From positions 1 through 41,094 of the IMG/VR virus record IMGVR_UViG_3300048927_000767: DNA of 41,094 bases. One strand, given 5' to 3'. This document shows positions 2,958 through 41,094 of this stretch, in pieces. Source of the DNA: a virus. Within the stretch, counting starts at the first letter, position 1. Each line of letters begins with the position of its first letter. Under the pieces are notes generated by a model. That model saw only the letters and a program-made list of their open reading frames with translations, did not search any database and was not told where the DNA came from. The position numbers were made by a program, and so were the translations under genes.

Positions 2958-3327
2958 TCTTTTCCCTCTCCAGCTCGATCGCTTGTTCAAGCGCCGAGTA
3001 GCGAACATCATTGATTATGGATGCATCGAGACGCGCCTTTTCAGCCGCATCGATTTTCGCTTGCGCCACCAGGCGTTCTTCATCGCGCATGATATCCAGA
3101 CGCCGCTGTTTTTCCTGCCAGACCAGACGCTCTGAAAGCGCACCCTCTTCGCGCGCCTTTGCGACCTGCAATGGAACACGACCGGCCAGCAACTCGCGCA
3201 CCATCGGCACGCGATCGATAAGAGGAATGTCGCGGACAACGGGCACGCCTTCATAGAAGGCCAGCATAAGCAGGATTGCGGGCGCACCAACAACTACGGC
3301 ATTAAGCAACAGCGAAACGGCCCTCAT
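2863..3327 (-). CDS. Rz-like inner-membrane spanin
   Basis: A 154-residue protein starting at ATG 3325-3327, which overlaps the lysozyme stop as ATGA. One N-terminal membrane segment (about residues 3-23) is followed by a short linker and a long charged coiled coil (about 50-125) rich in Arg, Glu, Lys and Ala. That is the i-spanin layout. The Rz1-like lipoprotein begins within its 3' third in a different frame. Together with the holin (3880-4125) and lysozyme (3324-3917) this makes a complete Gram-negative lysis cassette. Confidence 0.7.
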   Translation of the reverse strand: MRAVSLLLNAVVVGAPAILLMLAFYEGVPVVRDIPLIDRVPMVRELLAGRVPLQVAKAREEGALSERLVWQEKQRRLDIMRDEERLVAQAKIDAAEKARLDASIINDVRYSALEQAIELEREKNAAAEDDLAVCHEFMPDSVRNALNAIGRLGN

Positions 3328-3917
3328 AGACCGCTCACACACAGCTCGGCCTCACCGATCCGCTGCGCATCACCCATCTCGCGGCGATTGACGAGGCCGG
3401 TGTAGACATTGCCACCGGCTTGATTGAACGCAGTGGCGGCTTCACAACTCGCCAGCATGTGCCCTGCCCGCGCCATCCGTGCAGCCGTTGAATTGCAGGC
3501 TTTAACCGGCCCGATGTTGTAGGAAAGCGAGGTCATCGACGCCTGCCAGCTGAGCGGCTTCTGCTCGAAGCCCACGATGCAGCGCGTCAGAGGCCGGAAG
3601 TAGTCGCGCGTGACACGTTGCTCCAAACGTCGATCGCATCCTGCAGGCGTCTCGACCATGCCGGGCTTGACGTTTTCAGTGTCGCCGTCGCAAATGGTCC
3701 ACACAGGAGGTTTTGCCAACCGGTCGAAGTAAGCGACAAGCTTGCGGCCTTCCCACGGTTTGATCAGCTCCTTGATCGCCAGCGTCACGGCCGGAGGTGT
3801 GTCGACGGTAGGCGCGCCGTATTGAACGTAAGCCGCACCGCCTGCAGAGAACGCAGCAACAACAGCAGCGATCGCGGCCTTAGCCCTGCGCGTCGGGACG
3901 ATCTTGTTGATCGGCAT
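3324..3917 (-). CDS. endolysin, GH24 lysozyme with SAR-type N-terminus
   Basis: A 197-residue muramidase. The start ATG 3915-3917 has AAGGT eight bases upstream. Residues about 11-33 form a weakly hydrophobic Ala/Gly-rich segment, typical of signal-anchor-release endolysins that are exported by Sec and held in the membrane until holin or pinholin action. The GH24 catalytic block follows: K-P-W-E-G-R at about 53-58 gives the catalytic Glu, with an Asp nine residues later and W-T-I-C-D-G-D-T after it. Several Cys residues fit thiol-regulated SAR lysozymes of the P1/P21 kind. It overlaps the holin gene by 38 bases. Confidence 0.85.
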   Translation of the reverse strand: MPINKIVPTRRAKAAIAAVVAAFSAGGAAYVQYGAPTVDTPPAVTLAIKELIKPWEGRKLVAYFDRLAKPPVWTICDGDTENVKPGMVETPAGCDRRLEQRVTRDYFRPLTRCIVGFEQKPLSWQASMTSLSYNIGPVKACNSTAARMARAGHMLASCEAATAFNQAGGNVYTGLVNRREMGDAQRIGEAELCVSGL

Positions 3918-4125
3918 TGGAGATACCTTTCTGCGCAACCAGGCGCGCGACAAATGCGCCGCCAACCGACAGAAATGTCAGGGCAGCAAAAATACCGGTT
4001 GGAATGGGATAGATGCCGCCGAGCAGCGGCAGCGCGACTTCAAGGCCGGACAACACACCGGCAAGCACAATGAGGCGCACGGACCAGGCGCGTTTCAGCA
4101 CCTGCCGCCAATTAGAGACGAACAT
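3880..4125 (-). CDS. holin-like small membrane protein
   Basis: An 81-residue protein with two hydrophobic segments (about 17-38 and 44-66), a basic N-terminus (W-R-Q-V-L-K-R-A-W) and a charged tail. ATG 4123-4125 has AGGA at eight bases. It lies directly upstream of, and overlaps, the lysozyme gene, which is the normal holin position. The family resembles small holin-like proteins of alphaproteobacterial phages; no functional residue can be pointed to, so the role rests on topology and location. Confidence 0.65.
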   Translation of the reverse strand: MFVSNWRQVLKRAWSVRLIVLAGVLSGLEVALPLLGGIYPIPTGIFAALTFLSVGGAFVARLVAQKGISNADQQDRPDAQG

Positions 4126-4217
4126 GGAATATGTCCTGATTTATAGAAGTTTGATGCCGCAGACCGGGCTGCAGATTATTCCGCCATCAATAAGCAATGC
4201 AGCGCATCACTCGTCGA

Positions 4218-5372
4218 CTACCCATGATGGTTGGAGGACTTTCTGTTTCCAGAATAAAAGTTTGGCAGCAAGGCATTCATGGCAGGACCGAGGTAGCGTG
4301 CACTGACCAACTCCAACACCCACGCAGCGGCCAATGATATGAGTACGACGAGCGCCACAGAGAACAGAGGATTAATGCCAGCCAACTGAGCAGCAAGCAT
4401 TGTCATCACGGGGAGGTGAACCAAATACAAAGGATAAGACAACTCCCCGATCATTCGATCGAACGACCAATCCTTCGTTAAATGGAACAGACAAGGCACG
4501 GCCAGGAATGCCGCGATCAGCGCCAGTGAAGAGTTTATCGAGATTGAGTAAACCCGATATTCCGGGAACAGTGGGTAGATTACCAACGCGACCATAAGTG
4601 CAAATGCATAGGCCGGATGGAGAAGCATTCCTGCGTTGTAAACTCGGTGCGCCACCATCCCACCCACGAAGAATGTCAACTCGAAGGGGAAGAAACGGTA
4701 ACGCCAGGGATCGCCATCGAAACCCAATTGATAAGCCACCACACGAAGCAATCCAACTCCCAACGCGATAAGGACGAGAGTTGTCGTTTTTCTTTTCGAG
4801 AACCATGGCGCCAAGCAGTAGAACATCAGTTCAAGGCTCAGCGTCCATGAAGGCACTATCAGTAAAAGGTTGTATGGTTGAGGGCCATCTCCTCGACCCA
4901 AGGCATCTACCAAGACTGTGCCCATCTCGGTTACCTTGGCGAAAAACAGTCCATCTTGACCAAACAGAACAACGTTCGAGATCGTCGCCCAAATTGTATA
5001 AAGCGGACCGAGTTCACTGGCGATTTCAAAAATATTGGACTGCGAGAGAATAGCCCAAATCAACACGCAAACCAACACCAACCAGTACGCAGGATAAATT
5101 CGGATTGCTCGAGCGATGTAAAAATCTGTTAGCCTAAGACTGCCGTCCGCTTTTCGGTACTTACCCGAAAGGACCAGAGACATATAGAAACCAGAGATTA
5201 TAAAGAAAATCTCGACAGCCACTTCACCGCCAACAAGTGGACGGAAACCGACCCACCACGAAGGCAAATGCGCAACGATGACCGAAATTGCAAGTATAAG
5301 TCTAAGAGCACCCATATTGGCTCGCTCGCATGATGTACCATTCATGTCAAGCAAGACGCGCCGCCCCGTCAT
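4218..5372 (-). CDS. acyltransferase family 3 membrane protein (probable LPS/O-antigen-modifying moron)
   Basis: A 384-residue integral membrane protein with about ten hydrophobic segments. The acyltransferase-3 signature is present: a conserved His in V-A-H-L near residue 34 at the end of TM1, G-E-V-A-V-E-I-F-F-I-I-S-G-F near 48-61, and R-A-I-R-I-Y-P-A-Y-W near 88-97. Members such as OafA and Oac O-acetylate surface polysaccharide. The start ATG 5370-5372 overlaps the upstream stop as ATGA; a later ATG at 5345 is also possible. It lies between the tail-fibre genes and the lysis cassette, and parts are visibly more AT-rich than its neighbours, which suggests a separately acquired lysogenic-conversion gene. 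Confidence 0.85.
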   Translation of the reverse strand: MTGRRVLLDMNGTSCERANMGALRLILAISVIVAHLPSWWVGFRPLVGGEVAVEIFFIISGFYMSLVLSGKYRKADGSLRLTDFYIARAIRIYPAYWLVLVCVLIWAILSQSNIFEIASELGPLYTIWATISNVVLFGQDGLFFAKVTEMGTVLVDALGRGDGPQPYNLLLIVPSWTLSLELMFYCLAPWFSKRKTTTLVLIALGVGLLRVVAYQLGFDGDPWRYRFFPFELTFFVGGMVAHRVYNAGMLLHPAYAFALMVALVIYPLFPEYRVYSISINSSLALIAAFLAVPCLFHLTKDWSFDRMIGELSYPLYLVHLPVMTMLAAQLAGINPLFSVALVVLISLAAAWVLELVSARYLGPAMNALLPNFYSGNRKSSNHHG

Positions 5373-5851
5373 GGCCAATATTGATCTGACGTAAAGTCAG
5401 AGGCAATTTCAGGCATATCCTTGATCGCACGCGCAGCAAATATGTGCGCCTCTTCATGGGCCGCAGCAGCCTGGCCAAATGCGAAACACGTTTGAGCGTC
5501 CATCTCCGTCATGCTGTTATCATCAGCAATCCAGCGAAACGGTTGCTCACCGCCATGCCAATGCAGATCACCCGCCTGCGAACCATTTGAGATAGCAAAC
5601 CCTGCCAACGTTCCAGCGCCGGTGACCCTTTGCCTGCTGATGGGATCGAAAGCATAGCGCTTGCCGGTGAAGCTGAAACCTGCATGAATGCGACGGTCTC
5701 GTTCTTCATTCACATCTGACGCGGTCGGCTTCTTTTCGATAAAGTTACGAAATTCTGGATCTTCAGCATCGATCTCGTCAGTACCGTCCTGCTCAGCAGC
5801 GTAGAAGCCAACAATCTTGCCGAGTTCACGCTTTACATGCACTTTACTCAT
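5369..5851 (-). CDS. DUF4376-domain protein, tail-fibre associated
   Basis: A 160-residue protein. The central and C-terminal part has the DUF4376 pattern: R-D-R-R-I-H-A-G-F-S-F near 51-61, then a beta-rich stretch and the helical A-A-A-A-H-E-E-A-H-I near 128-137. DUF4376 proteins are normally encoded just after tail fibres, often as C-terminal parts of fibres or fibre-assembly proteins. It overlaps the fibre gene by four bases and the acyltransferase gene by four bases, so it is translationally coupled on both sides. Confidence 0.7.
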   Translation of the reverse strand: MSKVHVKRELGKIVGFYAAEQDGTDEIDAEDPEFRNFIEKKPTASDVNEERDRRIHAGFSFTGKRYAFDPISRQRVTGAGTLAGFAISNGSQAGDLHWHGGEQPFRWIADDNSMTEMDAQTCFAFGQAAAAHEEAHIFAARAIKDMPEIASDFTSDQYWP

Positions 5852-25914: not shown

Positions 25915-26568
25915 TCACACTTTTTCCAGCATGACAAGAGGCATGTTAAACACGGTCGGCTTTCCGAAAATCAGGATGGTCACAACAGCGTCACCGTTAC
26001 CGGCTCCCGCGAATGCATCAATGCGCACTTCGTAACCAACAAATGGTCCGCTTGTGATCCTGACTGTCTGACCCTTATAGAAAGCGCTCGAAGAACGCTC
26101 CCAGTCGTAGTCACCATTTTCAGCCATCACCTTGAATGAATTGATGACTTCCGCATCAATCGGAACAGCCCTTTCCCCGTTCATGATGATCCGGTTAACG
26201 TGTTTGAAGCCCAAAACACCGCGTAAAGCTTCACCGATATTGAGGCAAAAAACAAACACGACACCGTTGAAAACTGGCATCGATTGAGCGGGCAATCGCT
26301 TGCCGTGGCGCTTGCGCTCTGGCCCCATCCGCATGGGAACGCACGCCTCAATGTCCGCCTCCAGCATCGCCCTTTCCACAGCCTGTTCATGACCAAACGC
26401 GACTTGCACCACCATCCAGCAAGAATCAGCGGTGTTTTTAGCCAGCCACCGGCTCGCCGATTCGCGCTCTCGCGCAATCTGTGCGGCTTCCTCAGCGATG
26501 CGATCCAGCTTGAGCATGCCTTTAAGGGAAACGTGTTTGGATATGTCGTCGAACTTATGCTGCATCAT
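25915..26568 (-). CDS. NusG-family transcription antiterminator (phage paralogue)
   Basis: A 217-residue protein. After a helical, Glu/Arg-rich N-terminal extension (about 15-45), the NGN domain begins at W-M-V-V-Q-V near 51-56 and includes A-C-V-P-M-R near 74-79, R-K-R-H-G-K-R near 84-90, P-V-F-N-G-V-V-F-V near 97-105. The C-terminal KOW domain is Y-K-G-Q-T-V-R-I-T-S-G-P-F near 164-176 ending in L-E-K-V. This is NusG/RfaH architecture. ATG 26566-26568 has GAGGGG upstream. It lies immediately before the ~25-kb late operon, implying control of late transcription by processive antitermination; that role is inferred. Confidence 0.8.
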   Translation of the reverse strand: MMQHKFDDISKHVSLKGMLKLDRIAEEAAQIARERESASRWLAKNTADSCWMVVQVAFGHEQAVERAMLEADIEACVPMRMGPERKRHGKRLPAQSMPVFNGVVFVFCLNIGEALRGVLGFKHVNRIIMNGERAVPIDAEVINSFKVMAENGDYDWERSSSAFYKGQTVRITSGPFVGYEVRIDAFAGAGNGDAVVTILIFGKPTVFNMPLVMLEKV

Positions 26569-27769
26569 CGTTACGCCCCTCAATTACCGTTCGTTCAAAC
26601 TCAGCCATCGCATCGGCCACAGCCCCATCCAGATCATCAGCGCCCTCATCGACATGAGGAAGCCAAAGCCACTCCAGCCCCGGAGCGTGTGGCAACCATG
26701 GCCAGCCCTTGCGCTCATGCAGCCGTTGCCATGCAGCCGCCACGTCACCACCAACATGCGCCTTTCCAAAGCCCTCAGAGATCCGCAGCAACGCAGGCGT
26801 GACGGTCATGCCTTTGTGGTCAGAAGCCCGCTCGTGCATGGTGTTGACCTTTGGCCAGCCATATTTTTGCTTACGCTCAAGCACGATCTGGCGAGCGACA
26901 TCACCGCCAGCCTCCAGCATTCGTTGCTGCATGGCGGTTGGCGCTGGCACCGTGGTGGCAATTGGTTGGGTTAGCTCAAACAGGCGCAGCGCATGCCAAG
27001 GGCGTGAGAACGGCTTGTGCATCGTCGGCAGGGCAACTTCAGACTTCGGGTCATCCAGCTTTTCCCAATCCCGGCCATTCAGGTACACACCGGCATACGG
27101 CACCCTCACGCCCTTGGTGGCATTGGCCCGTTCGATGTAGAGCGGCGACTTGGCAATGCAGTCGGCTCGCTGTTCTGGTGTCAGTGCCTGCCAAGCCTTC
27201 TCGGCAGCATGGGTGCTGTCGCTCTTGCGGGTTGGCCAATCGCCGTACCAGCGTTTGAATGCACGGTAACTTGCCTTGGCATCTTCACCAGAAACACTTT
27301 CCCGCGCATCTCCCTCTTGCTCAAAATCAGTATTTTCTAAGTTTGAGTTATTACTATGTGCCGATTTTACCGGCGACGGAGAAACCGGCGACGGTTTTAC
27401 CGGCGACGGCATTTCAGTCTGCGGTAGAAATGCAACACTCTCGTTTTCCGCACCTTCAGCAGCAGTGCGCGGCTCATCGTAAATGACGAAGGAAGCGGCG
27501 CTAAAACGGCCATCTTCGCGCGTCTGCTCGCGTTCCGCGTAACCGGCATCAACCAGCTCCGAAATCATCTTGCGCGCCTTGTCGCGCCCGCAGTTGCCCT
27601 TGTTGACGATATCCCCGATCACGACCTTCCAGTGATCAGGCTTCGACAACAAATAGCCGAGCAGCCAGCGCGCATCCATCGACAGGCGCGTATCTTCAAA
27701 CACGTGGTTTGGAATGGCGGAGTAGCGCGCATTGCGCACCCCGCGACGGATTGAAGCCTCACCGCTCAT
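26555..27769 (-). CDS. winged-helix replication initiator-like protein
   Basis: A 404-residue protein. The N-terminal ~95 residues form a helix-turn-helix domain: L-S-M-D-A-R-W-L-L-G-Y-L-L-S near 29-42, then V-V-I-G-D-I near 49-54 and G-R-D-K-A-R-K-M-I near 61-69. A linker with P-S-P-V repeats (about 120-135) follows, and a C-terminal helical domain with W-Y-G-D-W-P near 174-179. This layout resembles phage initiators such as lambda gpO, with DNA binding first and a helicase-recruiting part later. The DNA coding the linker has iteron-like repeats beside an AT-rich patch (27321-27409). Overlaps both neighbours by a few bases. Confidence 0.65.
   Translation of the reverse strand: MSGEASIRRGVRNARYSAIPNHVFEDTRLSMDARWLLGYLLSKPDHWKVVIGDIVNKGNCGRDKARKMISELVDAGYAEREQTREDGRFSAASFVIYDEPRTAAEGAENESVAFLPQTEMPSPVKPSPVSPSPVKSAHSNNSNLENTDFEQEGDARESVSGEDAKASYRAFKRWYGDWPTRKSDSTHAAEKAWQALTPEQRADCIAKSPLYIERANATKGVRVPYAGVYLNGRDWEKLDDPKSEVALPTMHKPFSRPWHALRLFELTQPIATTVPAPTAMQQRMLEAGGDVARQIVLERKQKYGWPKVNTMHERASDHKGMTVTPALLRISEGFGKAHVGGDVAAAWQRLHERKGWPWLPHAPGLEWLWLPHVDEGADDLDGAVADAMAEFERTVIEGRNDDAA
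27321..27409. other. candidate replication origin inside initiator gene
   Basis: Three exact ACCGGCGACGG copies at 27369-27379, 27384-27394 and 27399-27409 with a 15-base period. The 27321-27358 segment beside them is strikingly AT-rich relative to the rest of the gene. Iterons plus an AT-rich patch inside an initiator gene is the lambda-type origin arrangement. The repeats also encode P-S-P-V-K/S units, so a protein-level repeat is the alternative. Confidence 0.5.
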
Positions 27770-29706: not shown

Positions 29707-30132
29707 ATGGAGTTTATCTATCGTGCTAACGTAATCGATGACCCCGATGGGGGTGTATTGGTAACGTTCGCAGATGTACCTGAAGCTATTACTCACGGCG
29801 TCGATAAGGAGGACGCCATGAGTTCCGCTTCCGAAGCTCTCGGATTGGCCTTGCGCGGCATAGTCGCGCAAGGGCGACCATTGCCACAACCGAAGGCCAC
29901 AGATGGCGTCCAGGTGGCAGTTGATGCGGAAGACGCACTCAAGCTTGCGGTTATTTCTGCCTTTAACGAGGCAGGAATTTCTAAAAGTGAGCTTGCTCGC
30001 CGTCTTTCGAAATCCGAGAACGAGGCGCGGAGAATTCTTGATCCTGACCACAGCACCAAGCTTGGTCCTCTTCAAGATGCGCTTCGGGTACTGGGTAAGG
30101 CAATTGTCATTTCCATAAAGGAAGCGGCATAG
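29707..30132 (+). CDS. hicB: HicB family antitoxin with C-terminal helix-turn-helix
   Basis: A 141-residue antitoxin. Residues about 1-65 form the partial RNase H-like HicB fold: D-P-D-G-G-V-L-V-T-F-A-D-V-P-E-A near 12-27 and A-L-G-L-A-L-R-G-I near 44-52. Residues about 80-125 form a DNA-binding helix-turn-helix (G-I-S-K-S-E-L-A-R-R-L near 90-100). AGGAG precedes the ATG by about nine bases. It would bind HicA and repress the promoter at 29357-29408. The module ends with its own terminator (30140-30169). Confidence 0.85.
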   Translation: MEFIYRANVIDDPDGGVLVTFADVPEAITHGVDKEDAMSSASEALGLALRGIVAQGRPLPQPKATDGVQVAVDAEDALKLAVISAFNEAGISKSELARRLSKSENEARRILDPDHSTKLGPLQDALRVLGKAIVISIKEAA

Positions 30133-35236: not shown

Positions 35237-36361
35237 ATGGGTAATGTATTGTTCAAGGTCCACCGCACGGAACTGCTTGCCGCCCTTGAGGCTGCAACGC
35301 AGGCCGTTGACGCAAAAGGCACTATCCCCATTCTCTCCAACATCCTCCTCAAGCCGGAGGGCGGTCGCTTGATCGTCTGTGGCACAGATTTGGATATCGA
35401 GATTCGGACGTCGTGCGACCTGATCGAGGCGCAGTCTGGAAGCGCGGTGACCGTTGCGGCAAAAGAGTTGCGAGAGATCACGCGCGCTGCGCCAGAGAGT
35501 GCAGAGATTGTTTTCGAGGAAGGTCGCGCCGACTACCAGATAGGCATTCGTGCGGCTCGATCCCGTTATTCACTCCATACATTGCCCGACAGTGATTTCC
35601 CTTCGATCGGAAAGACGCTTCCGGATCTCTGCATCACGGCGGGCTCTGCGCTTCTGTCTGAGGTGTTGGGCAAGGTCTATTACGCTATCGAGAAAACCAA
35701 CAAGACGCGCATGTACCTCATGGGTGCGTACCTGCACGCGTCTGGCGACCGACAGCTGACTATTGTTGGATCTGACGGGCGTCAGATGGCAGTCGTCAGG
35801 ATGGATGTTGATGAGCAGGTGGATTTCCCCAGTGTGATCCTACCTGTCAAAACGGTTGCGATTTTCCGCAAGTTGTTCGGCACGATGAAAACGCCCTGCA
35901 AGGTGTTTATCAGCGACTCCAAGATAGCGTTCGAAAGCGGAGATACGACCTTGATATCTCGCCTGGTCGACGGAACGTTTCCTGATTACAGCAGGATCAT
36001 GCCGCGTCGTCTGCCGGACTTCGTTACTGCGGATCGGGACGCGATGAAGGCAGCAATCAAACGCACTTGCGTTGTTGCCGCCGACACGAGCAAGGACGGC
36101 CTGAAGGTTTCTATCAGCCAGGACGGCCTGCAGCTGCAGCTGGTTTCAAAATCTGGCGAAACTGCCAGTGAAGCAGTGGATGCAGATTACGCCGGAGAAA
36201 GCTACGAGATCGGCTTTAACGGCTCCTATCTTTCCAGCCTACTGGAAAGCATTTCCACCACATCGTTCCGCATGCACGGCTCAGACCCTGCGATGGCAGG
36301 TCTTTTCACGCCCGATAACGATGCCGACGAAGATTACATCTTAATGCCGATGAGGGTTTAG
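35237..36361 (+). CDS. dnaN: DNA polymerase III beta sliding clamp (phage-encoded DnaN)
   Basis: A 374-residue full-length clamp, close to the bacterial size. Three repeated clamp domains are visible: K-G-T-I-P-I-L-S-N-I-L-L near 27-38 starts domain I, L-P-D-S-D-F-P-S near 114-121 opens the linker to domain II, and the end M-P-M-R-V at 370-374 matches the bacterial C-terminus that lines the peptide-binding pocket. It would tether polymerase at the fork, perhaps favouring phage replication. It lies in a repressor-controlled operon. Confidence 0.92.
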   Translation: MGNVLFKVHRTELLAALEAATQAVDAKGTIPILSNILLKPEGGRLIVCGTDLDIEIRTSCDLIEAQSGSAVTVAAKELREITRAAPESAEIVFEEGRADYQIGIRAARSRYSLHTLPDSDFPSIGKTLPDLCITAGSALLSEVLGKVYYAIEKTNKTRMYLMGAYLHASGDRQLTIVGSDGRQMAVVRMDVDEQVDFPSVILPVKTVAIFRKLFGTMKTPCKVFISDSKIAFESGDTTLISRLVDGTFPDYSRIMPRRLPDFVTADRDAMKAAIKRTCVVAADTSKDGLKVSISQDGLQLQLVSKSGETASEAVDADYAGESYEIGFNGSYLSSLLESISTTSFRMHGSDPAMAGLFTPDNDADEDYILMPMRV

Positions 36362-37713: not shown

Positions 37714-37940
37714 TGGCTCAGGCAGAGGCAAACCAGAGACGCAAAAGGCGACCGACTATCCGCGCCAGCGACCTGAAAGCGACTCTTGCCGCCCTGAAAA
37801 GCGGCGGGCTTTCGCCATCAGCGCTGGATGCATTGCCAGACGGCACGTTTAGATGGCATTTTACGACCCCGACTCCAGGCGTTGAAAACGACTTGGATCG
37901 AGAGTTAGCGGAGTTTGATCGAAAGAATGGTTACAGTTGA
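37713..37940 (+). CDS. small protein upstream of integrase, unknown function
   Basis: A 75-residue protein. The ATG at 37713 overlaps the HNH stop (TGATG). A basic N-terminus (R-R-K-R-R-P near 10-15), L-K-A-T-L-A-A-L-K near 21-29, and an acidic C-terminus. It overlaps the integrase start by 14 bases, a typical place for an excisionase or directionality factor, but the sequence is not a recognisable one. Confidence 0.58.
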   Translation: MAQAEANQRRKRRPTIRASDLKATLAALKSGGLSPSALDALPDGTFRWHFTTPTPGVENDLDRELAEFDRKNGYS

Positions 37941-38949
37941 GCTCAAGGGCATTCACACCGTAAAAGCCAAAGGCACGACCTACTATTATGCCTGGCGCGG
38001 TGGCCCACGGCTCAAGGGCGAACCCGGAACACCTGCTTTTATGGCCTCGTACAACGAGGCCGTCGCCAACCGGACAGAGCCGGAAACAGGCCGGTTCAGA
38101 TCCATTATCACCAATTACAAGGCAACGGCTTTCAAGAAGGTTGCGGATTCCACAAAGCGCGTCTGGACGCCGTGGATTGATAGGATTTCTGAACATTTCG
38201 GAGATCTCAGCATCGCACAGTTCAATCGCACAGACAAAATCCGCCCTCGAATTCGCCAGTGGCGCGGTCAATATAGCGAAACCCCACGCGCAGCTGATAC
38301 CGGCATGCAGGTTCTCTCGCGCATCCTTTCGCACGGCGTCGACCCCATGGGAGTTTTAAGCTCCAACCCTGCCGAGGGCATCAAGCACCTTTACAGTTCA
38401 GACCGATCCGAAATCATCTGGACAGACGCAGACATTGAGCAGGTGAAGGCGTGCGTATCCGACGAGGTGAAGTGGGTCATTGATCTGGCGGCACATACCG
38501 GCCTGCGTGTCGGAGATTTGCTCAGGCTTTCATGGTCCCATGTTGGCGCGGATGCTATCGTTGTGACCACCGGCAAGAGCAAGCACAAACGTGAAGCGAT
38601 GATCCCCCGCTACGATGCCCTGAATGAAATTCTCGACCGTATTCCAAAGCGCTCACCGGTCATCCTGACCAGCACAAAAAAGCAGCCATGGAAGCAGGAC
38701 GGGTTCAACACCATGTTCTGGCGCGCGAAGGAGAAGGCCAACATGCTGGACCGAGACTTGCACTTTCACGACCTGCGTGGAACTGCAGCAACCAAGTTTT
38801 ACATTGCTGGCCTATCGGTGCGCGTAATCGCGGAAGTAATGGCATGGGAAGAAGCGACTGTTGAGAAAATTATCCGCCGTTATGTTGGTCGCCAGTCCGC
38901 GACCAAGGAGATGATTAGGCAACTAAATGAGGCTAGGCGTCAACCTTGA
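37927..38949 (+). CDS. int: tyrosine recombinase (phage integrase)
   Basis: A 340-residue integrase. Catalytic residues are visible: Arg194 in H-T-G-L-R-V-G, Lys217 or a nearby Lys in G-K-S-K, H-D-L-R with His281 and Arg284, Trp307 where many have His, and Tyr319 in R-R-Y-V-G. The N-terminal ~150 residues are the arm-binding and core-binding parts. ATG 37927 is preferred to a TTG at 37915. It converges with the TAC operon and points toward the tRNA. It would integrate at the tRNA-Gly 3' end. Confidence 0.93.
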   Translation: MVTVELKGIHTVKAKGTTYYYAWRGGPRLKGEPGTPAFMASYNEAVANRTEPETGRFRSIITNYKATAFKKVADSTKRVWTPWIDRISEHFGDLSIAQFNRTDKIRPRIRQWRGQYSETPRAADTGMQVLSRILSHGVDPMGVLSSNPAEGIKHLYSSDRSEIIWTDADIEQVKACVSDEVKWVIDLAAHTGLRVGDLLRLSWSHVGADAIVVTTGKSKHKREAMIPRYDALNEILDRIPKRSPVILTSTKKQPWKQDGFNTMFWRAKEKANMLDRDLHFHDLRGTAATKFYIAGLSVRVIAEVMAWEEATVEKIIRRYVGRQSATKEMIRQLNEARRQP

Positions 38950-38958
38950 GCGCTCGAG

Positions 38959-39447
38959 CTATTCGTCCTCAGTGACCGCCATCAGCTCTGGCTCCGGTTC
39001 CGCAAATGAGCTTACTCCAGAGGCACCAACACCTCCTGGCGAGGGCGGGAGTGGAGGGAATGGCGCTCTCATCTGATGAGATACTACAGCGAATAGTGAA
39101 GTAAAAGCGTTCCAGACTGATGTCGCAACATATCTTTTACAAGAAGCTGCGACCTTAAGCATGTCGTCTGACGAGTTCTGAAGGATACAGGCATACGTGG
39201 CCATAACCGCCTGCAACTCTTCATCTGTATCCGAGTTTCTCTTCACTACCGAAAAGTTGCACCTAAAGAAGAACTTGTTTTCACCGATTTCTTCCGGCGT
39301 ATCCAACATCGCGGAATACCGCAACTCGACCTTATCACTCTCTACTACTTCGGGCCGCGCTACCAGATCCACTTCGACTAGGGACTGAGCGAGAAGCTTT
39401 GATGTAACAGTGGACGGTTCTTTTTTTGATTTGGCTGATTTAGCCAT
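38959..39447 (-). CDS. SecB-like chaperone of a toxin-antitoxin-chaperone module
   Basis: A 162-residue protein. The region about 55-75 (N-K-F-F-F-R-C-N-F-S-V-V) and 108-137 (A-T-S-V-W-N-A-F-T-S-L-F near 108-119, then M-R-A-P-F-P-P-L-P near 126-134) aligns in pattern with SecB, where the same place reads Y-x-R-E-x-x-x-x-L-T and P-P-L-x-L. Overlap with hicB at 39440-39447 places it as the third gene of the operon. In characterised TAC systems (for example Rv1957 with HigBA) a SecB-like protein protects the antitoxin from aggregation and degradation. The match is by pattern and context and needs structure-level confirmation. Pro-rich C-terminal tail after about 130. Confidence 0.65.
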   Translation of the reverse strand: MAKSAKSKKEPSTVTSKLLAQSLVEVDLVARPEVVESDKVELRYSAMLDTPEEIGENKFFFRCNFSVVKRNSDTDEELQAVMATYACILQNSSDDMLKVAASCKRYVATSVWNAFTSLFAVVSHQMRAPFPPLPPSPGGVGASGVSSFAEPEPELMAVTEDE

Positions 39448-39985
39448 GTAACTTCACTTTATCGCCTGCTTTGAAATTAAACGCGTGCCATGCTCCAGCG
39501 TCTTCACTGACGTAAGCCAGCCTAGCCTTGTCATAGGTGCCATGATAGAGCGTCTCTGGAACCAAGTTTTGCTGAACTTGAAGCAGTTGAACCGTCGCCG
39601 CCACACTCATTTCTTGGCGCTTCTTCGAAAAAACGCCGTCGAAACGGTCTGCTATTCCGTTGCAATCAAGCTTCTCTGTAACCGCCATGCAGATCCAAGC
39701 ATTCAAAGACACACCGATATCCGCAGCAGCCATTGCAGACTTGCGGTGTAAATCGGGTTCCATGCGAACATTAAACGACCCTTTGAACGGCTTCTGGGGC
39801 TCGCGGCCTTCCTCCACACACGTATCGATATAGTCATCGATAAGGGCCTTCGCGCACGCTTCTACTTCGGAAGCTGCGTCGCATTCCGCTACCAGCAGAT
39901 CATCGATATGCAAAACCTTAATGAAGAGGCTTCCGTCCTCCCATTCGACAGAAGCTTGATAACCTTTATAAGTGATCGGCTTCAT
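39440..39985 (-). CDS. hicB: HicB antitoxin with long C-terminal extension (candidate chaperone-addiction domain)
   Basis: A 181-residue antitoxin. Y-K-G-Y-Q-A-S-V-E-W near 6-15 and I-D-D-Y-I-D-T-C near 49-56 form the HicB RNase H-like part. A ribbon-helix-helix lies at about 70-106: F-N-V-R-M-E-P-D-L-H near 71-80 and S-L-N-A-W-I near 93-98. Typical members of this type end near residue 110. Here about 75 residues follow, with hydrophobic patches L-Y-H-G-T-Y near 146-151 and A-W-H-A-F-N-F near 165-171. In SecB-linked modules such an extension is the chaperone-addiction segment that makes the antitoxin unstable unless the chaperone binds. Four-base overlap with hicA. Confidence 0.8.
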   Translation of the reverse strand: MKPITYKGYQASVEWEDGSLFIKVLHIDDLLVAECDAASEVEACAKALIDDYIDTCVEEGREPQKPFKGSFNVRMEPDLHRKSAMAAADIGVSLNAWICMAVTEKLDCNGIADRFDGVFSKKRQEMSVAATVQLLQVQQNLVPETLYHGTYDKARLAYVSEDAGAWHAFNFKAGDKVKLHG

Positions 39986-40230
39986 AATTCTTTCCTGTCT
40001 ACGAGATAGTCCCGAATTTGTTTCACGAGATAGTGCTTTATCTCATTTCCCGGATGAGGCTCGTGGGCAATGATGACATTCGTGCGCTCTTTATGCACGA
40101 ACTTCCTTTTCGAACCTTGCCCGTTCCTGACCTCATAACCCAACCCCTCAAGCAATTTGACGAGCTTGCTATAAGGAAATGGGCCCTTGCATACCTTAAA
40201 CTCAGTTTTCAACGTGTCGAGGCGCGTCAT
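39982..40230 (-). CDS. hicA: HicA toxin of a toxin-antitoxin-chaperone module
   Basis: An 82-residue mRNA interferase candidate. P-Y-S-K-L-V-K-L-L-E-G-L-G-Y near 19-32, then G-Q-G-S-K-R-K-F-V-H near 37-46 and H-E-P-H-P-G-N-E-I near 56-64, with K-Q-I-R-D-Y near 70-75 at the end. This is the HicA subtype with G-S-x-x-x-F and H-x-P-H-P motifs. ATG 40228-40230 has GGA eight bases upstream and is chosen over a TTG at 40275. First gene of the leftward operon, followed with overlaps by hicB and the secB-like gene. Confidence 0.8.
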   Translation of the reverse strand: MTRLDTLKTEFKVCKGPFPYSKLVKLLEGLGYEVRNGQGSKRKFVHKERTNVIIAHEPHPGNEIKHYLVKQIRDYLVDRKEL

Positions 40231-40248
40231 CTGTCGTTCCGAAAACAA

Positions 40249-40425
40249 ACAAGCGGCGCAATCGTTCCGTCGCAACTGAATTCTAGTTGCAGGATTTTCC
40301 TATACATAGTTTCGGTTACGATCAAGTTAAATCCCTGCAACAAAATTACCACTCTGAGATACAGAATATAAAGCGATCAATCAATTTCAAATTGTGCTCA
40401 CTTAGAGACACAAGCGGCGCAATCG
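40249..40425. repeat. 16-bp direct repeat flanking the TAC promoter
   Basis: ACAAGCGGCGCAATCG is present at 40249-40264 and 40410-40425, 161 bases apart. The interval holds the TAC operator and promoter. It could mark a past insertion or recombination, or be recognised by a protein. It is not part of the tRNA. Confidence 0.65.
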
Positions 40426-40458
40426 ATCGACGCTCGGACCAGAGCGTGAACACCCGGC

Positions 40459-40478
40459 TGTAAAACTAGATGTAAAAC
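40459..40478. promoter_or_regulatory. candidate integrase arm-type sites
   Basis: TGTAAAAC at 40459-40466 and again at 40471-40478, a 12-base period, 51 bases from the tRNA 3' end. Paired short direct repeats beside the insertion site are typical of arm-type binding sites of tyrosine integrases. Confidence 0.4.
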
Positions 40479-40528
40479 CCACGCAGCTACTGGCAGATAA
40501 TTTCTGCTGAAAGCCTTGCTTAGCAGGG

Positions 40529-40602
40529 TGGAGCGGGTGAAGGGAATCGAACCCTCGTATTCAGCTTGGGAAGCTGCTGCTCTACCATTGAGCTACACCC
40601 GC
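40529..40602 (-). tRNA. tRNA-Gly(CCC), probable phage attachment site
   Basis: A 74-base cloverleaf including an encoded CCA end (40529-40531). The 5' G is at 40602; acceptor GCGGGTG pairs with CACCCGC, the T-arm has GGTTCGATTCC, and the anticodon loop TTCCCAA gives CCC, read by GGG codons. The 3' end faces the prophage at lower coordinates, and the integrase gene lies 1.6 kb away, so its 3' end is the likely attB core, restored by phage sequence. The first base pair of the anticodon stem looks non-canonical. Confidence 0.9.
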
Positions 40603-40674
40603 AATGGATAAAGAGATTCAACAGATCACCGCGGCTGTCAAGCCGCGGTCAGTTTTGGGTGGGCTGCCGCCCCA

Positions 40675-41094
40675 TCACATCCGGAAATGTTTGGAAAGCT
40701 TGAGGCCCTGCGCCTGATAGTTGGAACCTGCGCTGGTACCATAAAGGCCCTGCGGTTTTTCCAACATGTGTTCATAGACCAGACGGCCGACAATTTGGCC
40801 ATGTTCCAGAATGAAGGGCACTTCGTGGCTGCGCACTTCCAGAACAGCACGGCTGCCTGCGCCACCGGCGCTGACATGACCAAAACCGGGGTCGAAGAAA
40901 CCGGCATAGTGCACACGGAATTCACCGACCAGCGGATCGAAAGGTGTCATTTCCGCCGCGTAAAGCGGTGGCACATGCACGGCCTCTCTGGACACGAGAA
41001 TGTAAAACTCGTCGGGATCAAGGATCAGTTCGGAGCGGCCACGGTTATAAAGAGGCTCCCAGAAATCAAACACATCATGCTGCGCCTTGATGTC
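40675..41094 (-). CDS. dcd: dCTP deaminase, C-terminal part (cut by window end)
   Basis: The frame is open to the window end, so the 5' part is missing; 139 codons plus stop are visible. The host-type 2'-deoxycytidine triphosphate deaminase pattern is clear: G-E-F-R-V-H-Y near the middle, F-F-D-P-G-F-G, then G-S-R-A-V-L-E-V-R-S-H-E-V-P-F with the expected catalytic Glu, and G-Q-I-V-G-R-L-V-Y-E. The end carries S-N-Y-Q. It makes dUTP from dCTP for thymidylate synthesis. It is chromosomal and marks the host side of the integration junction. The longer alphaproteobacterial form of Dcd probably extends well beyond the window. Confidence 0.85.
   Translation of the reverse strand, partial: DIKAQHDVFDFWEPLYNRGRSELILDPDEFYILVSREAVHVPPLYAAEMTPFDPLVGEFRVHYAGFFDPGFGHVSAGGAGSRAVLEVRSHEVPFILEHGQIVGRLVYEHMLEKPQGLYGTSAGSNYQAQGLKLSKHFRM

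Follow-up and report, generated by a model that had tools for sequence, protein, structure and literature searches.

A candidate HicAB-type toxin-antitoxin-chaperone module at the edge of a Rhizobiaceae prophage

Known toxin-antitoxin-chaperone systems and the prophage-edge operon

In toxin-antitoxin-chaperone (TAC) systems, the antitoxin carries a C-terminal chaperone addiction (ChAD) region that destabilises it and recruits a SecB-like chaperone, and these regions vary in both length and sequence (PMC5105189). The HicAB-SecB system of Methylomonas methanica MC09, Mmet-TAC, has been shown in E. coli to be under the control of its chaperone (Bordes et al. 2016, PMC5105189), and in Mtb-TAC of M. 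tuberculosis (HigB1-HigA1-Rv1957) a ChAD peptide has been seen bound on the chaperone Rv1957 (5mtw; PMC6377645). Other TACs act against phages: CmdTAC defends E. coli against T4, whose capsid protein takes the chaperone off the antitoxin, which ClpP then degrades (PMC11618068), and MqsRAC protects E. coli against T2 (PMC9519451).

We analysed a 41,094-bp record (the window) of a virus dormant in the chromosome of a soil bacterium; its right end is host sequence. An ORF check of the record found three leftward genes with the strand and the overlaps that the earlier note had described, 4 nt between hicA and hicB and 8 nt between hicB and the third gene (Table 1). The interval it had assigned to them, 38959-40425, does hold the operon, but coding ends at 40230, and 40231-40425 is upstream DNA that closes with one copy of a 16-nt direct repeat. 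Its family assignments of toxin and antitoxin also stand: HicA matches Pfam PF07927 (3e-12, 46.8 bits against a cut-off of 27) and PHROG 8887 (1e-18), whereas the 181-aa HicB matches PF05534 (5e-20, residues 52-99) and PHROG 9151 (7e-28, residues 1-106). The extra C-terminal tail of about 75 residues is likewise there, as the HicB core ends at 107 and 74 residues lie beyond it. Gene order is the same in 11 further loci, with third proteins down to 19% identity, and the hicB stop overlaps the start of the third gene by 8 nt in 10 of the 12 loci and by 1 nt in the other two. Because order and overlaps are retained across 12 loci, the trio is not a chance arrangement. Mean identity among these loci is 62% for the HicB core (1-107), 54% for HicA, 28% for the third protein and 23% for the tail.

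Table 1. Coordinates of the operon and its neighbours in the window
Feature	Position	Strand	Description
Tyrosine integrase	37915-38949	+	PHROG 1, 2e-34; converges on the third gene, ending 9 bp from its stop
Third gene	38959-39447	-	SecB-fold chaperone (predicted), 162 aa; 8-nt overlap with hicB
hicB	39440-39985	-	Antitoxin, 181 aa: HicB domain and C-terminal extension; 4-nt overlap with hicA
hicB residues 139-181	39443-39571	-	Hypervariable part of the tail with predicted disorder; candidate ChAD region
hicB residues 108-138	39572-39664	-	Predicted linker helix opening with a CxxxxxRxDGVF-like pattern
hicB core, residues 1-107	39665-39985	-	End matches the stop of the shortest tailless relatives; AlphaFold2 pLDDT mostly 72-93
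hicA	39982-40230	-	HicA-family toxin, 82 aa from a conserved ATG (MTRLDTLK...)
Upstream region	40231-40528		16-nt direct repeat and imperfect inverted repeat
tRNA-Gly(CCC)	40529-40602	-	Attachment site; its 3' end forms the right prophage border

The anatomy of the operon, with a tailed HicB and a third protein of predicted SecB fold, makes it one of the TAC kind, and we consider it highly probable that it is a HicAB-type TAC module and belongs to the cargo of a temperate Rhizobiaceae phage. This agrees with the TAC reading of the earlier note, in whose favour the predicted fold and the strict co-occurrence of tail and chaperone gene both speak. In such a module HicA would be the toxin, and HicB would neutralise it and probably repress the operon; the tail (about residues 108-181) would render HicB unstable or misfolded unless bound by the SecB-fold protein, itself presumably translated from the overlapping third gene. 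Were the chaperone lost with the prophage, or occupied by, for example, the proteins of an infecting phage, HicB would fail and HicA would stop growth. We infer in this way the toxicity of HicA, the chaperone dependence of HicB, the release of HicA on chaperone loss or titration, and a stabilising or defensive role; keeping the prophage in place and excluding superinfecting phages would each be a plausible use.

The operon shares some features with the described systems and differs from them in others. Mmet-TAC likewise comprises a HicA, a HicB with a C-terminal extension and a SecB homologue, but it is gammaproteobacterial and, compared by description rather than by sequence, its HicB has 159 aa with the ChAD at 119-159, against 181 aa here. 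Mtb-TAC shares the antitoxin's C-terminal extension and the predicted Rv1957/SecB fold (Foldseek lists 5mtw at ranks 11, 15, 17 and 18), yet it is a HigBA rather than a HicAB system, the two chaperones are 8-10% identical in the fold alignment, and only the module described here has the prophage location. CmdTAC and MqsRAC follow the same logic of toxin, antitoxin and SecB-like chaperone; their toxins, however, are an mRNA ADP-ribosyltransferase and MqsR, CmdA ends in LAA, and defence has been demonstrated for those two. The same branch also includes tailless pairs, among them L018-L020, with HicAs 71-73% and HicB cores 69-71% identical to those of the window, but the HicBs of such pairs are 107-134 aa long and lack a SecB-like gene after them. 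PADLOC returned no match to the operon. HicAB-type TACs (Methylomonas) and anti-phage TACs are thus already known, and the operon is a remote additional member. As far as the sequences tell, it departs from the known kind in a chaperone unseen by profiles, a HicA without the canonical histidine and a HicB without an LAA degron. We raise only tentatively the idea of a separate, phage-spread TAC branch, in which the chaperone has moved past sequence detection and a HicA lacking the canonical catalytic histidine may arrest growth by other chemistry or by RNA binding.

A predicted SecB fold in the third protein

The earlier note had recognised a SecB pattern in the third protein and proposed comparing the predicted structure of the 38959-39447 product with SecB and Rv1957. 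The fold part of this claim is upheld, but sequence searches show no link to SecB. At E<=10 the third protein has no meaningful match in Pfam, NCBIfam, PHROG, PADLOC or the PDB sequences; the Pfam SecB profile PF02556 matches none of seven family members at the same threshold, and hhalign of the family against six housekeeping SecBs gives a probability of only 2.8%. In a genome with a copy of the module (G001), the Pfam SecB profile reports one gene, a housekeeping-type SecB. The AlphaFold2 model, built from 11 sequences (pLDDT 82, pTM 0.74), has a strand-rich first half forming a beta sheet, a 31-residue helix at 96-126 and then FPPLPP. Searched against the PDB with Foldseek, this monomer model matches SecB (1ozb, 1fx3, 1qyn, 5jtl) or Rv1957 with the HigA1 ChAD peptide (5mtw) at all of ranks 1-19, with E values of 2.8e-6 to 1e-3, identities of 8-14% and TM scores of 0.5-0.69; the first unrelated match comes at E 1.2e-2. 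The best viral fold matches include phage proteins annotated as SecB. We regard the SecB fold, in a protein where sequence detection fails, as well supported by the model. FPPL after the helix was considered as a TAC-specific mark and rejected, as housekeeping SecB carries FPPL too.

Scans made directly with the third protein found no relative in genome contigs, named phages or plasmids and only two close relatives elsewhere; divergent relatives were reached via HicA searches, and profile searches of genomes added one more. The resulting family has 12 proteins of 139-162 aa, the others being 19-62% identical to that of the window. It is nevertheless coherent: leave-one-out profiles built from the other eleven recover each member at 58-189 bits, and no shuffled sequence scores above 11 bits. 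An alignment of seven members held no block conserved enough for a motif scan, and dN/dS between loci L002 and L003 is 0.10, which indicates purifying selection on the third gene. Because homology searches miss such chaperones, current TAC counts are probably too low.

The family is sparse: one genome among 397 from the order and two among 148 from the genus have it, and at least 8 of the 12 loci have phage settings. An integrase lies near the operon in the window, L002 and L003, a CI-type repressor adjoins L014, terminase genes adjoin L027 and L049, and L013 and L015/L023 are provirus loci; in L026 no phage genes were seen and L017 adjoins a tRNA, with the gene order kept in both. The distribution is mobile and phage-associated, and its wider meaning is that TAC modules ride temperate phages as cargo. 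A second toxin-antitoxin-like pair lies near the L017 module (L074, 9003-9794), in which a short RHH-like protein accompanies a GNAT acetyltransferase (PHROG 1758).

The HicB tail and its chaperone gene

AlphaFold2 models the HicB core with confidence but gives pLDDT below 50 over residues 139-181, and a fold search with this model gave uninformative matches. Since the tail is the variable, disordered part of the protein, as described for ChADs (PMC5105189), the ChAD reading is supported. The CxxxxxRxDGVF-like pattern is common to most tailed HicBs. Other TAC antitoxins have been noted to carry an LAA-type degron (PMC11618068); in our 12-locus comparison this C-terminal degron is absent, the HicB of the window ending in KLHG and other tailed HicBs in ANA, HA, VHG, RFH, WGN or similar. 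Overlap with the start codon of the next gene limits which residues can end the tails, and KLHG was accordingly rejected as a conserved tail motif, its CATG carrying that codon. A resemblance between WHAFNFK in this HicB and WHRLSSYR in the Mtb ChAD was dropped, as it is not retained in relatives. The window also encodes a second HicB-like protein (29707-30132, + strand; PF15919 at 7e-5, below the cut-off), an orphan antitoxin in that no HicA partner is evident.

If the tail creates a need for the chaperone, the two should be found together. Among 20 related HicAB loci, 12 have a tail of 59-80 aa and a SecB-like gene, and eight have a tail of 0-27 aa and no such gene; neither a tail without the gene nor the gene without a tail was found in any of the 20. 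As 18 of these loci are retrievable by searches with HicA only, they were sampled irrespective of the trait. On a tree of HicA and the HicB core the trait changes at least five times, with tail and chaperone always concordant. Fisher's test gives p 8e-6 for the association, a figure that ignores the relatedness of the loci; the contrasts on well-supported branches number two (sign test, p 0.5), and with so few phylogenetically independent contrasts the formal test has little power. The sharpest case is that of L017 (Rhizobium sp. AC27/96), with a 182-aa HicB and a chaperone, and L018-L020, with a 107-aa HicB and none. Such joint switching, even between close sisters, is what chaperone addiction would predict, and L017 and L018-L020 offer natural pairs for understanding how a two-gene system gains or loses chaperone addiction. 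The co-occurrence also provides a simple rule for finding such modules: where HicB has a long tail, an overlapping chaperone gene is to be expected.

The tailed layout extends to plasmid relatives outside Rhizobiales. In Rahnella and on a Eubacterium plasmid, HicBs of 152 and 161 aa are directly followed by genes for 131 and 142 aa (L079, 2705-3100; L084, 2746-3174), whereas the HicBs of Azotobacter, Shewanella, Acinetobacter, Klebsiella and R. acidisoli have 110-118 aa and no such gene after them. Genes also lie directly after tailed HicBs in Alkalimonas (L031, 3591-4079) and Limnohabitans (L028, 3631-3969). SecB likeness was sought in the third genes of Rahnella, Eubacterium, Alkalimonas and Limnohabitans and none was shown; these are possible hidden SecB-like partners. 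The layout in Rahnella, Alkalimonas and the Eubacterium plasmid, which has phage genes, suggests that annotation understates how common hidden SecB-like partners are, in a Firmicute too. The Rahnella hicA is annotated as hexulose-6-phosphate synthase, evidently wrongly. Among the tailless pairs, those of L018 and L019 (near 3001-5460) lie just upstream of a phage-type portal gene, a site that is possibly a gene-transfer-agent cluster; L006 and L007 retain hicB beside the portal gene with no evident intact hicA.

The toxin, the prophage edge and alternative readings

The HicA of the window has GS-K41-R-K-F where well-studied HicAs show GS-His24, and H56-E-P-H59-P-G further on. A catalytic histidine at the His24-equivalent column, where strand 2 starts, is absent here and in all 20 aligned HicAs, which have K, A, G, R or S (20/20), and it is also missing in the distant relatives examined. 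The pairing of K41 with His24 depends on solved HicAs that head the PDB matches but do so weakly, at E 0.03-0.05, and two of which are seemingly His24-to-Ala variants, judging from the printed sequence. Because the canonical catalytic histidine is missing, HicA activity is not assured.

At the right end of the prophage, the stretch 40420-41094, searched as DNA, has matches in 392 of 396 Rhizobiaceae genomes, and most best matches start exactly at query base 110 (40529) and run through the downstream host gene. As chromosomal similarity begins at 40529, the 3' end of the tRNA contains or adjoins the right border. The operon lies between the integrase and the attachment site, where the earlier note had placed it. 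An att core repeat or left attachment site was searched for and not found in the record, whose first base is probably already within the prophage. Between hicA and the tRNA, an exact 16-nt direct repeat, ACAAGCGGCGCAATCG, occurs at 40249-40264 and 40410-40425, 161 bp apart, and could represent integrase arm sites or an insertion scar. Just upstream of hicA, an imperfect inverted repeat (40286-40298/40329-40341, 13-nt arms, 30-nt spacer) is a possible HicB operator. In L002 and L003 the integrase is 86% identical to that of the window and the operon occupies the same edge, with cargo inserted before the integrase. The cargo of L002 (1465-3688) comprises an NYN-domain protein matching the PADLOC candidate HEC-09 and a remote JetA-like protein, and that of L003 (1395-3134) a 579-aa protein with a metallopeptidase-like HETVH stretch; the integrase-operon gap looks like a cargo or defence hotspot.

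Could a two-gene HicAB working alone simply share its operon with an unrelated SecB-like chaperone that helps to assemble the phage or to take over the host? Phages and plasmids are reported to carry SecB-like genes (PMC4257090), viral proteins are among the fold matches, and HicA-HicB pairs without a chaperone exist, but tail and gene are never apart in the 20 loci, all 12 chaperone genes begin before hicB has ended, and the order persists in L026, without visible phage genes, and beside the tRNA of L017. We therefore judge this explanation improbable. Marginally less probable still is a toxin that is inactive or not a nuclease, with a module acting as regulator rather than addiction system. 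The non-histidine residue at the His24 position throughout this HicA branch and its distant relatives would fit that idea, His24 being required in other, studied HicAs (PMC12297915). Against it, G39, F44, H56, H59 and the HEPHPG motif do not vary among the 20 aligned HicAs and R42 hardly does, hicA is well conserved, with dN/dS of 0.07-0.08 between the window and relatives, and HicA-HicB pairs of this branch are common on conjugative plasmids; an inactive toxin would also leave the chaperone-linked antitoxin unexplained.

The TAC reading is compatible with a narrower form of itself, in which the module would be a dedicated anti-phage defence and a structural protein of a superinfecting phage would take the chaperone from HicB, by analogy with CmdTAC. 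We hold this to be possible, with some reserve. CmdTAC and MqsRAC set the precedent against T4 and T2 (PMC11618068, PMC9519451), and the same prophage edge in L002 houses candidate defence genes, the HEC-09-like NYN protein and the remote JetA-like protein; however, the position is explained equally well by prophage maintenance, and PADLOC does not recognise the operon, which does not exclude defence.

Elsewhere the window carries a phage-encoded DNA polymerase III sliding clamp (35237-36361, + strand) with three DnaN domains (Pfam, 3.6e-17 or better) and a phage-encoded NusG-domain protein (25915-26583, - strand; PF02357, 1.9e-10), a possible antiterminator. In the late region, an acyltransferase-3 protein (4218-5378, - strand; PF01757, 5e-21) is a candidate surface-modifying lysogenic conversion gene.
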